A stretch of 64,000 bases of DNA from Microbispora hainanensis (GTDB lineage Bacteria > Actinomycetota > Actinomycetes > Streptosporangiales > Streptosporangiaceae). This document shows positions 965-23,651 of the stretch, in pieces (the stretch's first letter is position 1; the number at the start of each line of letters is the position of its first letter). The DNA lies in NCBI RefSeq assembly GCF_036186745.1, contig NZ_CP108086.1, forward strand, positions 4,092,001 to 4,156,000. The letters run 5' to 3'. Position numbers and translations under genes: made by a program. Under the pieces are notes generated by a model. The model was not told the DNA's origin, made no database searches, and saw only the letters and a list, made by a program, of their open reading frames with translations.

Positions 965-3592
965 TCACTCGCGCGGCCGCCTGCTCCCGATCCGGTGGTA
1001 GGTGAAGGCCCAGCGGTCGGTGCCTTCTTTGCGGCGGGTGTAGCGGTCGGGGTGCTGGTAGCGGTCTCGGTTGTGGAACTGGCAGGCCGGGCCGAGGCGC
1101 TTCAGGTCCGTCAGGCCGCCGGTGCTCCAGTTGTCGGCGTGGTCGATCTGGCACATGGTCGCCGGGAGGGGGCAGCCGTCGATCCAGCACGTGGCGTACC
1201 GGGCGAAGATGGCCCGGCGTTGGGCGGGGGTGGCCAGGCGGACCTTGCGGCCCATGTCGAGGACCTGCCCGTCGGCGTTCATGACGATCCGCACCAGAGT
1301 CGAGGTCCGGGCGAGCCGGTGCACGCTGGAGACGGGCAGCACCTGCCCGGTCGCCAGCAACAACCCCGGCACCATCCCCAACGATGCCCCCAACGCTGGC
1401 CTCAGCGACGCCCCGGGCGGCATGCCTGCCGACGCTCCCGGAGCTGCACCCGGCGCCGCTCCTTGCGCCGCTTCTTGGGCCGTCCCCGGTGTCCCTCGCC
1501 CGGCTCCCGGTGCTGTTCCCGATGCCCTCCCGGGTGGTGTCTCCGGCTCCGGTCCCGGCCCGCCGGGCGCCGTTCCCGATGGCCCCGGTGCCCCCGGTGT
1601 CGGCGTCGCACGCGAGCAGCGCGCCTGGCCGTCGCACGGGCACGTGCCCTGGCCATGCCGGCAGTCCCCCGCAGGCCGAGGCCCGGCGTGGGTGTGGCGT
1701 GTGGAGGCGTCCTCAGGAGGAGGATCCGGCTGCGCCGCCTCCGAGGGTGCTATGTCGCAGTCGGCAGAGGCGGTGCTCGCGGTGTCGCGCGGCACGCACT
1801 CACCGGGCCGCCGCTCACCGGTCCCGCGCTTATCGATCCCGCAGCCGCGAGACTCCTCAACGGGAAGCCCGGCCGTGGCGTTACCGGATCCAGGGGCAGG
1901 GGCAGGGGCAGGGGCGGTGGCGGGATTGGTGACAGGGTCGGCCTCGGCTTCGCGCACGTCACCGATGCCGGCGTCTGCGGTAGCGCAAGCGTCGTCGGCG
2001 GCTGCATCTTCATCGGCACCGGTGTCCGCAGCGCCGTCGGCAGCGGCATCGCTTCCTGCACCGGTATCCGCATCGGCAGCGTCAAGCTCGTCCAGGGCGT
2101 CGGAGTCGTCGGTGCCATCCGCAGTCTTGCTCAGGGTCTCGGCGCTTCCAGTGGCGTCGTGGGAGTAGTCGCTGGTGTCTTCGGCCTCGGCGGGCGCAGG
2201 GTCGCCGGTGTCATCGGTAATCTCCGCACCGGCATCTGCCCCGGCCTCGCTGTCAGCAGGGCCGTCGGCCTCGCCAGGAGCGGGGTCGCTCGCGTTGTCG
2301 GCGGCGGTGTCTTGGGTGGCCGGGTCGGCGGGGTATGGGTCGTCGGTGTTTTCGGGGTCTGCGGTGGTTTCGGGGTCGGTGGGGAGGGATTCGGCGCTGA
2401 CCACGACGAGGAGCTCGGTGGCGATCTTCTGCTCCAGCAGCGCGATCAGCGCGTCCGCCTGACGTACCGTCAGCGGGCGGTCATCACCCTGTGCCCTCAG
2501 CTTGGCATACGCCTGCAACAAGGCCATCAACCGGGCGCCGGCCTCACGCGGCAGGTAGAACTCTCCTTCCACGCCGCCGCCCTTGCCCGGGCGGACCCGC
2601 AGGAACCGCCGCCCGTAATCGGCCCGCTCATCCCGCTCTTCCCCATCGGGGTCGAGCACCGCCCGCAGATGGCGGCCGGCCTTGGCGACCTCCGCCGCCC
2701 CCGCTTTGCCGGCCAGGTCCACCAAGATCGGCTCCGCCAGGCCGGCTTGCTCGTCGGTTAGTCCGGCGACGGCGGCGCAGATGGCCTCCACCACCCCCGC
2801 CGCCAGCTCCCCTGTGGCGAACTTCTCCCGCACGGTGGGGAGGCGGGGTAGTTCCGCGCCGAGGGTGAGCAGGCGGCCAGCTCCGCCAATGGTCATCCCC
2901 CCACTGGTGCGTAGCCAGCAGCGGGTGGAGGCATGGCCGTGCTGCCTGGCCTGACCTGCTCGGTGGACCCGGCCGACGCGGTCGGCCAGGGCGCTGGTGA
3001 TCCGGTCGCGGGCGAACAGCAGCTCTTCCGCCTCGGCCAGGCACACATCCACGTCATCGGGAAGCGGGGTCAGCGCCAGCTCTTGGGCCACCTCACGAAC
3101 CGACCCCACCACCACCCACGACGACCGCACACGACCCCGACCGCGGCCACCCACACCGGAAGCACCCGCGTCAGCGGCATCACCACGGGCGCCATCCGCG
3201 CCAGAAGCATCCGCGCCAGAAGCATCCGCGTCAGCAGCGTCCGCGCCATCGGCAGCCCCACCATCGGCAGTCCCACGGGCGGCGTCCGCGCGAGCGCCGT
3301 CCGTGCCAGCGGCATTCGCACCGATGGCAGCCCCACGCACGGCGTTCGCGTCGTCGCTGTCTGCGCTGTCGGTGTCGGTGCCTGGGACGTCCGTCCCTGG
3401 GGCGTCCGTGGTCTGGGTGCCGAGCGTGTCGGCGGGCTGCCGGGGCCCAAAGTTGATGATCGGGAAGGGCTCACGGGCGGACGAGCCGTCGGACGACCAC
3501 AGCGGCGAATTGGCGATCAGACGGTCCCACCACTCGCCGTCATCATCGTTCGAACGGCGAAGGCGCTCAGGATCGATGTCGAACATATCCAT
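965..3592 (-). CDS. DUF222 / HNH endonuclease-domain protein with very long low-complexity insertion
   Basis: This 875-aa protein belongs to the DUF222-HNH (13E12-like) family, which is repeated in many actinobacterial genomes. A nuclease role is inferred from the fold and no substrate is known. An Asp/Ala/Gly-rich segment (about 80-150) precedes the DUF222 domain (about 165-400). A roughly 350-residue acidic then Pro/Gly/Ala-rich region follows (about 405-755). The C-terminus (about 763-875) has an HNH/McrA-type zinc site: [17 protein letters not shown], then [11 protein letters not shown] chose ATG 3592 because GAGGAAGG lies just upstream and the earlier in-frame Met adds unconserved residues. 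Typical relatives are about 400-550 aa, so this one is about twice as long because of the insertion. Confidence 0.88.
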
Positions 3593-4222
3593 CGCGCCTT
3601 CCTCACTTGATTCGAACTGATGTATGGATTCTCTCACACTCCGTGAATGAACAGCAACCGTCCGAAGCGAAGGGTTGGAGCCGCAGGTCAACCCGAAAAC
3701 AGGGCGTGCCGGCCACCGAAGGGGCGGCCCAGAAAGGAAGCCAAGGAGCCGCTCAGAGAACGCGGAAAGCACTACCGCCAAGCGTCGAAGGCACTACCCA
3801 GCAAGCATCGAAAGCCCGGAAACCTGCGATGGCGCTACCAGAAAGTGGAACGCCGCCGCTCACAGAGTGGGGACGGCGCTGCCAGGAAGTGGTTCGGCGC
3901 TGCTCGGAAAGCGCCGAAGACCCAGAACGGCGAAGGCCCAGAACGGCGAAGGCCCAGAAAACGGTGACAGGGCTGCTCAGAAGGCGGCGACGGCGTGTTC
4001 GACCGCGCGCAGGGCGCGGTCGAGTTGAACGGCGCGGTCGGCGATCACGTCCGGTATGGGGCACCGGTGCGAACCCTGTCGATGCTGGTGAGGTACCAGC
4101 GCGAGAGGGCGCGCGCAGTGGACGGAGACGCAGTGGACGGCGGCGCAGTGACGGCGGCACGTTCGCCGGGGGAGGCGCAGCCCGTGGCGGGTGCTGGGCG
4201 GTGACGGTGGCGCCTCGGCGGG
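3593..4222. other. 630-bp intergenic region with short repeats and possible coding remnant
   Basis: No intact gene is convincing. Promoter space for the HNH gene lies at 3593-3650. Between about 3770 and 3960 a degenerate repeat occurs (gcgctaccagaaagtgg / gcgctgccaggaagtgg), and a 16-18 bp unit containing cagaacggcgaaggc is repeated in tandem at about 3920-3957. Several open frames cross this stretch in all directions, but their products are low-complexity Arg/Lys-rich and match no family I recognise. Confidence 0.4.
3977..4110 (-). pseudogene. Possible degraded C-terminal coding remnant, family unknown
   Basis: The minus strand reads RALSRWYLTSIDRVRTGAPY and then, after a one-base shift, PDVIADRAVQLDRAL and RAVEHAVAAF, followed by TGA at 3977-3979. 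The composition looks like real protein (helical, amphipathic) rather than a shadow frame, and the two parts join with one missing base. I cannot assign a family. It lies downstream of the DUF574 methyltransferase on the same strand and may be a decayed neighbour of it. Confidence 0.3.
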
Positions 4223-18989: not shown

Positions 18990-19069
18990 CCCCAGTCCGG
19001 GCCCTAGCGGCCCGGCCACGTGATCGGGCCGCGGGCAGCGGGCCGCGACTCGCATGATGGTCCTCACGT

Positions 19070-19300
19070 GTGAAGGTCTGCGCGCGGCATGCCTGCACGT
19101 ACACCCCCGATCTCGATGAGGTCTGGCTGACCGAAAAACGCGCCGACGGCTCGGCCCGCCTCGGCGCGCTTGCCGACTTCGCCGGAGAGCGCGTGCGCAA
19201 GTCGCAGAACCTGGAGAACGCCTACCTCCACGGCAGGTTCGGTGCTCTCCCGCACGTGGATCAGACCCCCCTCCTGCGTGCGCTCGGGTTGATCGGCTGA
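19070..19300 (+). pseudogene. rloA: RloA-like AAA15 ATPase, C-terminal remnant
   Basis: The open frame encodes the last roughly 65 residues of an AAA15/OLD-like ATPase of the RloA type: DLDEVWLTEKRADGSARL, ALADFAGERVRKSQNLENAY, LHGRFGALPHVDQ, RALGLIG. The Walker A, signature and Walker B regions are missing. The stop codon overlaps the ATG of the RloB remnant (TGATG), the native order of this pair in intact loci. RloA-type ATPases form anti-phage modules with RloB, a putative nuclease; here the module is dead. Confidence 0.65.
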
Positions 19301-19714
19301 TGGCTCCCAACGGACGACGAAGAGAGGCGGAAGGCCGCTGAAGAGGACCGCCGGGAATCGCCCCGAGCTTCGCACGATCATGGTCTTCTGTGAGGGCCGG
19401 AGCTCGGAACCCGACTACATCAACGGCCTGAAGCGACTGCCGCACGTAGCAGGCAACACCGCGCTGAACATACAGATTCATCCCGGACAAGGCGTGCCGG
19501 TCACGCTGGTCAGGAAGGCCGTGGAATGCGCGAGCGATCCGGAGATCGATGAGTGCCGCTGCGGATGAATGCCGCCCGCTACGCGGAGCGCCTTGACGCG
19601 CGTCACGCCGAAAATGGCACGGTCTTTCCGCACGACAACCCATCGTCGGGCATGTACAAGTTTCTGCGGAATCTCGAAGGCGAACAGGTGCGCTCTCGCG
19701 GTGCGGGCGGATGA
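19300..19714 (+). pseudogene. rloB: RloB family protein, frameshifted and internally deleted
   Basis: Three pieces in different frames add up to an RloB (TOPRIM-like) protein. Residues MAPNGRRREAEG open the gene. A second frame holds LKRTAGNRPELRTIMVFCEG, RSSEPDYINGLKRLPHV, NTALNIQIHPGQGVPVTLVR and stops at 19566-19568. The third frame has ARYAERLDARHAENGTVFPH and NPSSGMYKFLRNLEG before TGA 19712-19714. The central part, with the DVD acidic motif and the NPCFELW motif, has been deleted between two near-copies of gatgartgccgc (about 19550-19573), suggesting microhomology-mediated loss. The neighbouring ATPase is also truncated. Confidence 0.75.
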
Positions 19715-19718
19715 GATT

Positions 19719-20453
19719 TCAGGCGTCGGGGGCTTCGACGTCGGCGACGACGCAGGAGATGTTGTCGGGGCCGCCGCCCTCGTTGGCCAGCTCGATGAGC
19801 CGGGTGACCGTCTCCTGCGGATCGGCCACGGTGGTGAGCACGTGGTGCAGCGCCTCGGGTTCGAGCACGGAGGTGAGCCCGTCGGAGCACAGCAGGTAGC
19901 GGTCGCCCGGGTAGGCCTCGCGCAGCGACAGGTCGGGCTCGGCCAGGCCGCTGGTCTCCAGCGCCCGCAGCAGCAGGGAGCGGCGCGGATGGCGGGCGGC
20001 CTGGTCGGGGCTCATGCGCCCGTCGTCCACCAGCGACTGCACCAGCGTGTGGTCGCGCGTGATCTGGTAGAGCGCGCCGTCGCGCAGCATGTACGCCCGT
20101 GAGTCGCCCACGTGGGCCAGGGCGAACTTCCCGTGGCCGTCCCACAGCATCGCGGTGATCGTGGTGCCCATCCGCTCAAGCGCCGGGTCCTGCGCGGCGA
20201 GGTCGCCCAGGTGCTGCCCCGCCTCCCGTACGGCGTCCGCGAGGGCGGCGGCGACGTCGGCGGGAGCCGGACCGTCCTCCAGCTTGGCCAGTGTGGAGAT
20301 GACGGCCGCGCTGGCGACCTCGCCGTGTCCGTGTCCGCCCATCCCGTCGGCGATGGCGAGCAGGCGCTCGCCGGCGTGCACCGAATCTTCGTTGTTGGCA
20401 CGCGAGCGCCCGACGTCCGACCCCGCGGCGTACCGAATACGGTTGTGCGTCAT
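19719..20453 (-). CDS. PP2C-family Ser/Thr protein phosphatase
   Basis: This 244-aa soluble PPM/PP2C phosphatase has metal-binding motifs RSRANNEDS, IADGMGGHGHGEVASAA, LAHVGDSRAYMLR, LLCSDGLT and GGGPDNISCVV, all intact. It should remove phosphate from Ser/Thr residues, and the Ser/Thr kinase at 22749 is an obvious candidate counterpart. It is transcribed divergently from the DNA methylase gene through a 58-bp gap. Its promoter is TTGTGA-N17-TTTACT with the -10 ending 7 nt before the ATG and no SD, predicting a leaderless mRNA. Confidence 0.93.
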   Translation of the reverse strand: MTHNRIRYAAGSDVGRSRANNEDSVHAGERLLAIADGMGGHGHGEVASAAVISTLAKLEDGPAPADVAAALADAVREAGQHLGDLAAQDPALERMGTTITAMLWDGHGKFALAHVGDSRAYMLRDGALYQITRDHTLVQSLVDDGRMSPDQAARHPRRSLLLRALETSGLAEPDLSLREAYPGDRYLLCSDGLTSVLEPEALHHVLTTVADPQETVTRLIELANEGGGPDNISCVVADVEAPDA

Positions 20454-20511
20454 GGTTTTGAGTAAACCATTGGTTGAGTCACTTCACAAGCACAGTGCTA
20501 GGCTCCTGTTC
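20454..20511. promoter_or_regulatory. Divergent, overlapping leaderless promoters with AACCA-T-TGGTT dyad
   Basis: The leftward promoter is TTGTGA (20489-20484), 17-bp spacer, TTTACT (20466-20461), ATG 7 nt later. The rightward promoter is TTGAGT (20474-20479), 19-bp spacer, TAGGCT (20499-20504), ATG 7 nt later. The dyad AACCA-T-TGGTT (20465-20475) overlaps the leftward -10 and the rightward -35, so one regulator could control both genes. Confidence 0.7.
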
Positions 20512-22638
20512 ATGAGCCACGACGCCCAGGCGGACACCACGGCGGACACGACCGCGCGCCCGGCCGCCGCGAGCCCGCTCGAGGCCGCCGTCGAGGCGGC
20601 GGTCGAAGCGACCGTGAACGCGGGCGACATCGCCCGGCTCGCCGACGTCGGCAGGGCCGCGGTCAGCAACTGGCGCCGCCGCTACGAGGACTTCCCCCAG
20701 CCGGTCGGAGGTACCGCCTCCAGCCCGCTTTTCTCGCTTCCCGAGGTGGAGGCGTGGCTGCGCAGGAACGGCAAGTCGTTCGAGGTGTCGCAGGGCGACC
20801 GTGTCTGGCAGCGGCTGCGCGCGTCGGCCGACGACCTGCGCCTGGGCGAGGTGCTGGGGGAGGTCGGGGCGTTCCTGCTCTACACGCTCCGCGACCCCGA
20901 CGGCTGGAAGCTGCTGTCCGCCGCCCCCGACCTCGCCGTACGGCTCCCGCGTGCGGTGGCGGAGGCGACCGCCGACCTGCCCCCGCGACCCGGGGACGTG
21001 TCGCAGGTCGAGCCCGGCCTGCTCCGGCTCGTCGCCGGGATGGCCGAGCGGAGCGGTGCGGCCGGCGCGTTCGAGTTCCTCTGCGAGCGGTACGCCGAGG
21101 CGCACAGCCGCAGGCTGGCGCTGACCCGTCCCGACGTGGCCGCACTGATGACCCGGCTGGCCTGCCCTGGGGCGCGCACGGTGCTCGACCCCGCGTGCGG
21201 CATGGGCACGCTCCTGCTGGCGGCCGGAGCCAACGGAGCCAACGAGACCGCCGGGGCCATCGGGGCAGCCGGGGCAGCCGGGGCCACGGCGGCGCAGGGC
21301 GACGTGCGGCTGCTCGGCCAGGACGCCAACGAGACGGTCGCGCTGCTCGCGGCACTGCGGCTGCTGCTGCGCGGGCGGGACGCCCGGGTCGTCCCGGGAG
21401 ACGCGCTGCGGCACGACGCGTTCCCGCCCGACCCGCCGCAGGACGTGCTCGCGGACGCGGTCGTGTGCGACCCCCCGTTCAACGAGCGGGCGTGGGGCCA
21501 CGAAGACCTCGTCGGCGATCCGCGCTGGCAGTACGGCATGCCCCCGCGCGGCGAGTCGGAGCTGGCCTGGGTGCAGCACTGCCTCGCCCACGTGCGGCCC
21601 GGCGGGCTGGTGGCCATCCTGATGCCGGGCGCCGCGGCGAGCCGCCGCCCGGGACGCCGCATCCGGGCGAACCTCCTACGGACGGGCGCGCTGCGCGCGG
21701 TCCTCACACTGATGCCCGGCGGCCCCGACCTGTGGCTGCTGCGCCGCCCCGAGCCCGGGGAACGCCAGCCCGGCGCGATCCTCGTGGCCGACGCGGGAGA
21801 CGACCCGGCGTCCGTCGAAGCGGCCTGGCGGGCCCACCTCGCGCAGACCGAGCTGCCGCCCGGCTGCCGCACGGTCAGGATCATCGACATCCTCGACGAC
21901 GAGGTGGACGTGAGCCCCGCGCGGCACCTGTCGCCCCGGGTCGACACACGGGGCTTTCCCGCGGCCGGCGCGCGCTTCCGGGAGGCGGTCGCGGCGCTGG
22001 CCGACGACATGCCCGACCTGGAGGTGCTCACCGGCGGCGCCGCGGGCTGGGACGCGTCGTGGGCGACGGTGGCCGAGATGGCCAGATCCGGGCTGGTCAC
22101 CATCAGGCACTCGACGATGCGGGCGCTGCCCGCCGACGTTCCCGATGTTCCCGGTCGCGGGGCGGCCGAGGAGGGAGCACCCGAGGGCGGAGTGCCGGTG
22201 CTGACGGCCGACGACATCGCGGCAGGGACGGCGCCGTCGCGGCGGATTCCGCGCGCTTCCGGCCTGCTCGCCGTACGGCAGGGCGACGTCGTCGCGTCGG
22301 CCGTCACCGCCCGGGTGGTCGTGGGGGAGGGGGCGGTCCTCGGCCCCCATCTCAGCCTTTTCCGCGTCGATCCCGGCAAGGTGGATCCCGAGTTCCTCGC
22401 AGGGTTCCTGCGCTACGCCGCGGGCGGCGGCCGGCCCCACCTCGGCAGCAGCCGGGTGGAGGCCCGCCGGGCCCGCGTGCCCCAGCTTCCCCTGGCCGTC
22501 CAGCGGACGTACGGCACGGCCTTCCGGCGGCTGCTCGCGCTGGAGGACGGGCTGCGCGAGGTGGCCGCGGCGGGCGAGGCGTTCACGCGGCTCGGCGTCG
22601 AGGGCCTGATCGACGGACGCCTCCGTCCCCGTGGGTGA
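20512..22638 (+). CDS. N-6 adenine DNA methylase with N-terminal HTH and C-terminal HsdS-like domain
   Basis: This 708-aa protein fuses an HTH segment (about 30-80: ADVGRAAVSNWRRRYEDFPQ) to a HsdM-type N6-adenine DNA methyltransferase. Motif I is DPACGMGTLLLAAGA (about 225-240) and motif IV is CDPPFNERAWG (DPPF in place of NPPF/Y). The C-terminal part (about 560-700) resembles a type I target-recognition domain: VLTADDIAAG, LLAVRQGDVVASAV, VDPEFLAGFLRYAA. No restriction subunit is adjacent, so it is probably an orphan or regulatory methylase. An Ala/Gly-rich insert follows motif I. It is divergent from the PP2C gene, and a Ser/Thr kinase gene follows 110 bp downstream on the same strand. The start has a leaderless-type promoter. 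Confidence 0.88.
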   Translation: MSHDAQADTTADTTARPAAASPLEAAVEAAVEATVNAGDIARLADVGRAAVSNWRRRYEDFPQPVGGTASSPLFSLPEVEAWLRRNGKSFEVSQGDRVWQRLRASADDLRLGEVLGEVGAFLLYTLRDPDGWKLLSAAPDLAVRLPRAVAEATADLPPRPGDVSQVEPGLLRLVAGMAERSGAAGAFEFLCERYAEAHSRRLALTRPDVAALMTRLACPGARTVLDPACGMGTLLLAAGANGANETAGAIGAAGAAGATAAQGDVRLLGQDANETVALLAALRLLLRGRDARVVPGDALRHDAFPPDPPQDVLADAVVCDPPFNERAWGHEDLVGDPRWQYGMPPRGESELAWVQHCLAHVRPGGLVAILMPGAAASRRPGRRIRANLLRTGALRAVLTLMPGGPDLWLLRRPEPGERQPGAILVADAGDDPASVEAAWRAHLAQTELPPGCRTVRIIDILDDEVDVSPARHLSPRVDTRGFPAAGARFREAVAALADDMPDLEVLTGGAAGWDASWATVAEMARSGLVTIRHSTMRALPADVPDVPGRGAAEEGAPEGGVPVLTADDIAAGTAPSRRIPRASGLLAVRQGDVVASAVTARVVVGEGAVLGPHLSLFRVDPGKVDPEFLAGFLRYAAGGGRPHLGSSRVEARRARVPQLPLAVQRTYGTAFRRLLALEDGLREVAAAGEAFTRLGVEGLIDGRLRPRG

Positions 22639-22748
22639 CGCGGCGGCCGGCTCCCCCGGGGAGAGAGTCCTGTTCACCCCGTCACCGAGCCCGAGCATCA
22701 CGGACGGATCCGGTAGCTTTTTCCCCGAAAGGCCGACGGGAGGGGCGC

Positions 22749-23651
22749 ATGGTCATCGGCGACCGGTATGAGCTGGACGACCTCCCTCTGGGGCAGGGCG
22801 GCATGGGCGCCGTATACGGCGGGCATGACCGGCGGCTCGACCGCAAGGTGGCGGTGAAGTTCCTGCGGCTGCCCGACGGCCCCGACGAGGAGTTGCAGCG
22901 CCGGTTCATCCGCGAGGCGCGGATCCTCGCGAAGCTCGATCACCCGGGCGCGCCCGTGCTCTACGACTTCGGCACCTACGAGCAGCGGCTCTTCCAGGTC
23001 ATGCAGTTCATCGAGGGTGTGACGGTCGCCGACCTGCTGAGCGAGCACGGCCCGCTGCCGGTGCCGTGGGCCGCGGCCATCGCCGCGCAGGCGTGCGCCG
23101 TGCTGACCGCCGCGCACGAGCTGTCGATCTGCCACCGGGACCTCAAGCCGACCAATCTCATGCTCTGCCCGGACGGCAGCGTGAAGCTGCTCGACTTCGG
23201 GCTCGCCATGTTGCGTGAGACGGACGTCGCGGGGCGGACGGCGCAGTTCACCCGGATCGGGCAGATCCTCGGTACCCCGGCGTACATGTCGCCCGAGCAG
23301 ATCCAGCGGGGCGTCGCCGGGCCGAAGAGCGACCTGTACTCCCTCGGGTGCGTGCTGCACGAGATGCTGACCGGCGACCAGTTGTTCACCGGGCCCACGG
23401 AATATGCCGTGTTCGACAAGCAGGTGAAGGAGCAGCCGCCCCGGGTGCCGGGGGTTCCCGCCGAGCTCGACGGCCTCATCGCCGAGCTGCTGGAGAAGGA
23501 CCCCGACAAGCGGCCGCCCGACGCGCACACGCTGTTCGAGCGGCTGCAGCCGTTCGCGGTCGACCTGCCCCCGCTGCCCGGCTTCCTCAATCCGTCGTCG
23601 GTCCCCAGCCCCGGGCGCATGTACGCCCAGATGGTCGGCCGCGTCCGCTGA
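22749..23651 (+). CDS. Soluble serine/threonine protein kinase
   Basis: This 300-aa Hanks-type kinase is essentially a bare catalytic domain: GQGGMGAVYGGHDRRLDRK (P-loop; VAVKFL supplies the lysine), CHRDLKPTNLML (catalytic loop), LLDFGLA, GTPAYMSPEQIQRG and SDLYSLGCVLHEMLTG. There is no transmembrane helix and no PASTA or other sensor domain. GGGAGGGG precedes the ATG. It follows the DNA methylase on the same strand, and the PP2C phosphatase lies on the other side of the methylase, giving a compact phosphatase-methylase-kinase set. Substrates are unknown; the methylase is an attractive candidate (inference). Confidence 0.93.
   Translation: MVIGDRYELDDLPLGQGGMGAVYGGHDRRLDRKVAVKFLRLPDGPDEELQRRFIREARILAKLDHPGAPVLYDFGTYEQRLFQVMQFIEGVTVADLLSEHGPLPVPWAAAIAAQACAVLTAAHELSICHRDLKPTNLMLCPDGSVKLLDFGLAMLRETDVAGRTAQFTRIGQILGTPAYMSPEQIQRGVAGPKSDLYSLGCVLHEMLTGDQLFTGPTEYAVFDKQVKEQPPRVPGVPAELDGLIAELLEKDPDKRPPDAHTLFERLQPFAVDLPPLPGFLNPSSVPSPGRMYAQMVGRVR

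Follow-up and report, generated by a model that had tools for sequence, protein, structure and literature searches.

The window analysed here is a 64,000-nucleotide stretch of the Microbispora hainanensis chromosome (contig NZ_CP108086.1, positions 4,092,001 to 4,156,000), part of an 8.8-Mb single-contig genome. Between 19719 and 23651 it carries a PP2C-type phosphatase gene and, divergent from it, a gene for a methylase-like protein followed by a gene for a serine/threonine kinase; this PP2C(-)-methylase(+)-kinase(+) trio is a conserved stand-alone cassette. With moderate confidence, we read it as a defence-derived, autoregulatory system built around a predicted DNA-binding protein that is under the control of the kinase and phosphatase of the cassette, and for which methylation is doubtful. 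Gene linkage, conservation of an operator, constraint on a helix-turn-helix (HTH) domain, an altered catalytic pocket and defence-linked relatives are observed and support this reading. The three open reading frames (ORFs) and their family assignments, first reported in a preliminary description made from the letters of the window alone, are confirmed by the ORF list and by Pfam; the methylase-like gene was taken to start with an ATG at 20512, within a mechanical ORF that runs from 20089. The central features are as follows:

19719-20453, minus strand: PP2C (PstP-like) Ser/Thr phosphatase, 244 amino acids (aa); Pfam PP2C, 6e-13
20473-20489, minus strand: conserved operator TTGTGAAGTGACTCAAC, covering the PP2C -35 element and overlapping the likely methylase -35 region
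20512-22638, plus strand: HTH-N6 methylase-like protein with a target recognition domain (TRD), 708 aa; Pfam N6_Mtase, 2.6e-27, residues 186-400
20608-20781, plus strand: codons of the HTH domain, residues 33-90, the most constrained segment
22749-23651, plus strand: soluble Hanks-type Ser/Thr kinase, 300 aa; Pfam Pkinase, 3.9e-47

A scan of a genome collection returned 65 loci, 49 of them actinobacterial relatives (L036-L084), with 16 distant methylases (L085-L100) left out of the counts; at the 49 loci, partner genes were sought by tblastn with the window proteins. A divergent PP2C gene was present at 46 of the 49 and a downstream kinase gene at 44 of those 46, the three loci with neither partner (L078, L079 and L082) representing another paralogue that stands outside the trio counts. 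The preliminary description had made its proposal depend on co-occurrence of the three genes, and these counts uphold it strongly. The 46 trio-type loci come from 11 named actinobacterial genera and two metagenome-assembled genomes (MAGs) without a genus name, the loci nearest to that of the window being from Microbispora. Only the methylase, PP2C and kinase form gene clusters common to more than four genus groups. The flanks vary by genus: many Microbispora trios lie beside SDR and DUF2293 genes (Pfam places a DUF2293 gene downstream of the trio in the window), and in other genera the flanking proteins include the housekeeping LysA, homoserine dehydrogenase, PurC, PrfC and MetE. That the three are merely unrelated, adjoining genes draws some force from the abundance of kinases, with 62 first-look candidates in this genome, but it is refuted by the order, orientation and spacing of the trio, which are kept across these different chromosomal contexts, and we regard it as extremely improbable.

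In a second sample, of 296 class-level genomes with at most eight kinase candidates scored per genome, the kinase found a match of at least 1e-80 significance in 28 genomes; 14 of these matched at 81% identity or more, the remaining matches listed reaching at most 58%. All 14 of the former carry the methylase and divergent PP2C genes adjacent by coordinates. This sample overlaps the 46 loci, L109, L122, L141 and L143 being the same sequences as L073, L058, L068 and L070. Within the genus, the methylase was found in 15 of 15 genomes, with a best match of at least 72% identity in each. Beyond the trio, the pairing of a methylase with a kinase recurs in other families. No paper recognisable as being about the trio was found in the literature searched, a scope without preprints and without most subscription papers.

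An AlphaFold2 model of the methylase-like protein, built from 27 sequences (mean predicted local distance difference test score 81, predicted template modelling score 0.63), consists of an HTH domain, an HsdM-like fold, a TRD-like part and a long helix. In fold it resembles modification subunits of type I systems, PacII M1 matching with Z 31.6 over 367 residues at 3.9 A; 7eew_A aligned over residues 93-708, reaching residue 708, but at a root-mean-square deviation of 24.7 A. Residues 1-90 were barely covered by the structure comparison, and the HTH domain gave sub-threshold Pfam hits only. Three further parts of the coding sequence are relevant:

21187-21207, plus strand: motif I DPACGMG, the S-adenosylmethionine (AdoMet) site, kept
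21469-21480, plus strand: motif IV DPPF replacing NPPF, aligned with the NPPF of PacII M1 in a profile alignment
22057-22635, plus strand: TRD-like region and long C-terminal helix, residues 516-708, from the AlphaFold2 model and the 7eew_A alignment

Selection was expressed as the ratio of nonsynonymous to synonymous change (dN/dS, median dN over median dS by the NG86 method) in 12 Microbispora sequences. The HTH domain stood at 0.026, whereas the methylase domain and the TRD-like part each gave 0.22; the kinase gave 0.11 and PP2C 0.12, and the loosest stretch, at 0.47, was the helical one at residues 91-184. Mean identity between genera was 82% for the HTH domain, 68% for the methylase domain, 52% for the TRD-like part, 80% for the kinase and 59% for PP2C. 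The TRD-like part, at its dN/dS of 0.22, did not show the hypervariability that a restriction specificity domain would be expected to have. In four of the five Amycolatopsis trios (L074, L075, L077 and L084) the methylase-like protein is shortened to about 546-556 aa; L074 is without part of the TRD-like region, and its HTH, kinase and PP2C are kept.

Judged as a gamma-class N6-adenine methylase, the protein has the AdoMet-binding motif I, with DPACGxG in 55/55 trio rows (51 distinct), but lacks NPP(F/Y) at motif IV, where the same 55 rows all carry aspartate in place of asparagine (54 DPPF, 1 DPPL). In PacII M1, the pocket mutations N276A/F279A and F171A impair methylation (PMC9613975). Motif X reads SR(R/Q)LxxT(P/R) among the trio rows listed and GxYxTP in some kinase-less members of the family. 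AdoMet binding is probably kept, and the ability to transfer methyl groups has probably been lost or altered. Serine or threonine at positions 93, 596 and 615 (S93, S596 and S615) occurs in 96-100% of trio rows, compared with 3-32% in other groups, making these residues candidate phosphosites only.

The wider methylase family was represented in a tree by 100 loci, 98 from other genomes and two further paralogues from the same genome as the window (L006 and L007); eight of the 100 are trios. L120 and L124 were left out of the alignment and the tree; L120 (genome G246) is open over the HTH domain and motif IV and encodes 663 aa with DPPF. L124, open over the same parts, encodes 634 aa with DPPF and has a 47% kinase downstream and no PP2C match. 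At the asparagine place of motif IV the wider family carries N, D, H, S, A, G, V, T or E, and the family tree requires a minimum of 12 switches between N and non-N; by raw counts, motif IV is non-N in 58/62 kinase-linked rows versus 28/55 others.

The phosphatase and methylase-like genes diverge from a gap of 58 bp, in which the following promoter elements were read by eye:

20461-20466, minus strand: PP2C promoter -10, TTTACT, 7 nt from the ATG
20484-20489, minus strand: PP2C promoter -35, TTGTGA, with a 17-bp spacer to the -10
20499-20504, plus strand: methylase promoter -10, TAGGCT, 7 nt from the ATG

The sequence AGTRAA recurs at the place of the PP2C -10 among the loci listed. Overlapping, leaderless divergent promoters sharing a common dyad had been described here at the outset; both predicted promoters fit leaderless transcription, and the dyad is conserved beyond chance, judged by the trio loci and by enrichment upstream of family genes. 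In the form of the 17-bp operator TTGTGAAnnnAnTCAAC, it was found at 46/46 trio loci, 18 of them exact, 22 with one mismatch and six with two. Because the operator lies over both -35 regions, a protein bound there could repress both promoters.

Across the wider family, sites with at most one mismatch numbered 30 in 40 kb (the 400 bp upstream of 100 methylases) versus one in 1,179 kb elsewhere at these loci; with up to two mismatches, the operator occurred at 38/100 family loci (8/8 trios and 30/92 others) and at six sites in the 1,179 kb, the pattern having been derived from trio and H-type sites, so that enrichment in those groups is partly by construction. H-type kinase-linked rows, mostly f16 and probably from Streptomyces, carry it in 19/20 cases, often as CTGTGAACCGAGTCAAC. 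The remaining loci provide a freer test, since the pattern did not come from them, and here the operator was present, among loci without a kinase, at 7/27 N-type and 3/8 H-type loci, and also at 1/5 A-type loci. Within 400 bp of the methylase it was absent from six D-type rows and from those kinase-linked rows that are of N, S, G, A or V type. A perfect TTGTGAA/TTCACAA dyad was also sought upstream of 40 family genes, where little was found; the half-site form TTGTGAAnnnAnTCAAC was the one that worked. At L142 and similar f16 loci, further operator-like repeats lie upstream.

In the whole genome, the sole exact copy of TTGTGAAN5TCAACC is the operator of the window. The extended operator gave one exact, four one-mismatch and 70 two-mismatch hits, 75 in total, versus 17 for the reversed pattern; codon bias or additional sites may account for this excess. 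One of the one-mismatch sites (L243), whose surroundings were fetched, lies inside a predicted ORF.

The kinase motifs VAVK, HRD and DFG are each present in 45/45 rows and the glycine loop G.GGMG in 42/45. Trio kinases are 294-303 aa long, Pfam finding kinase-type domains only in that of the window; they stop directly after a conserved tail:

23565-23648, plus strand: kinase C-terminal tail LPxLPGFL..RMYAxxVGR, conserved among the trio tails listed

A related tail, PIPGVL..MYG, is present in the kinases next to L175 and L187, although these are 555 and 514 aa long; other methylase-linked kinases are of about 419-603 aa. For PP2C, the metal motifs DGxGG and GDS are present in 47/47 rows and SDG and GPDN in 46/47 (L041 is cut by the contig end), with NED in 39/43 rows listed and NQD in four Amycolatopsis rows. 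Its match to the Stp1/IreP model, at 9e-64, scores 215 bits, yet the cut-off is 230. A second, PstP-like gene, 61-62% identical to the trio PP2C, exists in this genome and in relatives, in what by reading is an FHA-PstP-RodA-type cluster (L242); that such a gene exists elsewhere suggests that the PP2C beside the methylase-like gene is dedicated to the trio. The four Amycolatopsis trios with a shortened methylase-like protein show the unusual PP2C motifs VNQDS and DGIGGQ. At five loci, four from Streptosporangium and one from Planomonospora (L052, at 3079-3774, L056, L057, L058 and L073), a second PP2C, 61-62% identical to the PP2C of the window, lies about 0.5-1.5 kb from the trio PP2C.

Since a dedicated PP2C and a kinase flank one operator together with an HTH protein, a reversible phospho-switch would be the natural reading of the arrangement. 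In the mechanism that we favour, the cassette would derive from a kinase-associated restriction or DISARM methylase, and its HTH-methylase-like-TRD protein would bind the 17-bp operator between the divergent genes, setting how strongly the phosphatase gene is transcribed in one direction and its own gene and the kinase gene in the other. The kinase would phosphorylate the methylase-like protein, or a partner recruited by it, and the dedicated PP2C would reverse this, such that DNA binding would be switched by phosphorylation. We infer that the HTH domain binds the operator, that the kinase acts on the methylase-like protein, that catalysis has been lost, and what part the cassette plays in the cell. 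The proposal that a phospho-switch controls DNA methylation, with which the analysis began, is partly supported. A switch remains a plausible reading of a conserved trio with a dedicated kinase and PP2C, whereas control of methylation is the weak part: motif IV carries aspartate in all trios, the scanned flanks contained no restriction partner, selection on the TRD-like part is purifying and of ordinary strength, and the HTH domain and the operator are the most strongly constrained. A bolder form of our reading, in which a methylase from antiviral restriction or DISARM operons has turned into a non-methylating, AdoMet-binding, sequence-specific 'pseudo-methylase' transcription factor, phospho-switched by a truncated kinase and a recruited PP2C, with the same kind of switch possibly at work in kinase-bearing restriction-modification (RM) and DISARM systems, is put forward tentatively, as possible rather than probable.

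Several observations weigh against the favoured mechanism. The operator enrichment is in part circular, as stated above; 62/100 family loci are without an operator-like site (up to two mismatches, 400 bp), and these site-less rows include the four N-type and the seven G/A-type that are kinase-linked. The genome holds a single exact operator, and the 70 two-mismatch hits may or may not amount to a wider regulon. SRRLLATP at motif X is found also in the sister clade of the trio, which retains NPPF in 6/7 rows, and altered motif X is by itself no mark of an inactive enzyme, since that clade shares the change yet keeps NPPF. An independent-pairs comparison gave no support to an association of kinase linkage with non-N motif IV (median p 1). 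The fold and the AdoMet motif are intact and the methylase domain is under purifying selection (dN/dS 0.22), so the protein may still methylate; aspartate at motif IV occurs in active alpha/beta-class N6 methylases. Two loci, L060 and L061, are without a nearby kinase, both on MAG contigs.

Some of these points would suit a solitary, active methylase of epigenetic regulation whose activity is tuned by the kinase/phosphatase pair. Retention of motif I, the catalytic use of DPP(F/Y) in other classes and the equal dN/dS of the TRD-like and methylase domains, which is consistent with one conserved specificity, speak for such an enzyme; the replacement of asparagine by aspartate in every trio sequence, and the shortened Amycolatopsis forms, with partial loss of the TRD-like region in L074 while the HTH, kinase and PP2C stay, make it quite unlikely. 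The loci without a kinase bear on a different explanation, in which the kinase is a toxin and PP2C its antitoxin in an abortive infection system, the HTH-methylase-like protein acting as sensor of foreign DNA or as repressor. The kinase is always accompanied by PP2C (44/44 trio loci) and PP2C lacks the kinase at 2/46; because PP2C-only loci exist and a kinase alone was never seen in trio loci, the kinase is possibly the harmful part, and it matches the PADLOC PD-T4-6 and mad6 models, both of them generic kinase models. Kinase-linked relatives, however, have no neighbouring PP2C, and both kinase-less loci are MAG contigs, so that the absence is weak; we consider this arrangement distinctly improbable.

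A same-strand kinase (at least 200 bits, no more than 1.4 kb downstream) was found at 47/100 family loci and at 39/92 of those that are not trios, where the chance estimate for such linkage is about 0.5% (62 kinase candidates in 8.8 Mb); among family loci, a PP2C match near the methylase occurred only in the trios. In a FastTree tree of 117 rows, some deep branches of which are open, the 25 trio rows form a clade (support 99) that groups with a seven-row clade containing L133 and L139 (support 97; join 93), followed by the f15 clade of L125 (99). At L133 (1174-8449), HsdR and a YgjP-like metallopeptidase lie upstream of an HTH-methylase-TRD gene, which is followed by a kinase, and L139 by reading has the same arrangement. 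L125 (17-8918) encodes DrmA, DrmB and DrmC, then the methylase, then a kinase; its methylase has GPPS in place of NPPF, a motif shared with L126, L128 and L130. DrmB is encoded at L150, and UvrD and GmrSD genes lie downstream at L175. The third paralogue of the genome itself (L007, 7783-15085; HPPF) has a larger kinase gene on one side and, on the other, a helicase-PLD gene matching Mokosh models. The ten defence-like neighbour proteins considered here were chosen by eye for looking defence-like. At L142 (from 4989, plus strand) and similar f16 loci, probably of Streptomyces, an HPPF methylase-like protein is followed by a small membrane-type protein, with a Pro-rich tail by reading, and a kinase of about 500 aa.

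The trio seems to descend from antiviral defence genes of type I RM or DISARM type, and it looks like a streamlined derivative in which the effector was lost, the kinase truncated and the phosphatase gained, the direction of change being that suggested by the tree. The kinship with defence that had been proposed is supported, by way of type I RM and DISARM relatives and less by way of Pgl. A Pgl-like modification defence, in which an active methylase would be switched by the kinase during phage attack and reset by PP2C, would fit the methylase relatives in RM and DISARM operons, the intact methylase fold (AlphaFold2, structure match) and the precedent of Pgl itself, where kinase and methylase are combined (PMC4365076). 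It is nonetheless unlikely: motif IV is altered, and at 12 trio loci, none of the 47 flanking proteins scanned (of 72 listed) matched a PADLOC model at 1e-20, the flanks of the window being covered in part. Spread by plasmids or phages, moreover, was not supported, with 3/72,556 plasmid records at 1e-20, one of them chromosome-sized, and, at 1e-10, 1/50,697 phage records, with a match spanning 10% of the query; this rarity, and the presence of the methylase in every genome of the genus sampled, also argue against it.

The decayed defence module noted next to the trio is real as a remnant and unrelated to the three genes:

19004-19577: AbiL-type defence remnant, with the C-terminal part of AbiLi at 19070-19297 (6e-13) and the N-terminal part of RloB at 19380-19565

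The RloB match, at 2.5e-4, falls below the Pfam cut-off. The gap between the SDR and PP2C genes, where the remnant lies, is under 200 bp in L036-L039, L043, L044 and L049; because it is so short at these seven loci, the remnant is a separate insertion, and the idea of the decayed neighbour as part of the system was rejected. A longer stretch of AbiL-type remnant is present at L042 (3117-5214), and at the same site L040 has a gene that by reading is NAD-dependent DNA-ligase-like. Downstream in the window lie genes that we take to be the rod-shape genes RodA, PBP2 and MreD/C/B.

The trio offers a conserved three-gene setting for asking whether DNA-modification proteins are controlled by Hanks kinases, as has been proposed for Pgl (PMC4365076), and through its relatives kinases are linked with actinobacterial loci that resemble DISARM and type I RM. 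It may also mark a traceable path from defence methylase to regulator, along which HTH and operator were kept, the pocket was altered, the effector lost, the kinase truncated and a phosphatase gained.

Among the closest systems is the type I RM-like operon of L133 and L139, whose methylase is in the sister clade of the trio methylase and in which the kinase also lies directly downstream. It differs in having HsdR and YgjP-like genes upstream (in L139 by reading), a kinase of about 474-494 aa, NPPF (L133) or SPPF (L139) where the trio has DPPF, no PP2C, and no operator within 400 bp. With type I RM in general the trio shares the HsdM-like fold, but no REase_I match was found in the flanks scanned. 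DISARM loci such as L125 (DrmA, DrmB, DrmC) and L150 (DrmB) hold relatives of the trio methylase; DISARM as described comprises DrmA, DrmB and a methylase (PMC9142583, PMC9252829), and the scanned trio flanks contained no Drm match. Pgl, or BREX type 2, resembles the trio as an actinomycete pairing of kinase and adenine methylase with proposed phospho-control, and differs in that PglW is a NERD/kinase protein of 1400-1600 residues, PglX has NPPY, and PglY and PglZ are required (PMC4365076, PMC12839542). The trio kinase has 300 aa and scores 48 bits against a PglW model cut-off of 990, and PglZ, PglY/BrxC and BrxD were not found in the 47 flank proteins (PADLOC, 1e-20). The MADS gene set is mad1-mad8; the trio has HTH, methylase and kinase components with partial PADLOC matches to mad1, mad2 and mad6, but the flanks scanned gave no other mad match. 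The trio thus lacks defining features that were looked for to place it in Pgl/BREX type 2, DISARM, type I RM or MADS, and may work like parts of these systems. To PstP/Stp1-PknB pairs it is linked by a PP2C 62% identical to the PstP-like gene of its own genome and by a Hanks kinase, which differs in being 300 aa long, kinase domain only, and paired with a predicted DNA-binding protein. M.SsoII provides a precedent for a DNA methylase that carries a regulatory domain, its N-terminal region regulating transcription; it is the C5 methylase of an RM system, and the accessible part of the source mentions no kinase or phosphatase (PMC3978073). Autoregulation of the M.SsoII kind would call for an operator-like site in the promoter of the gene itself, and such a site is present, in conserved form, at 46/46 trio loci.

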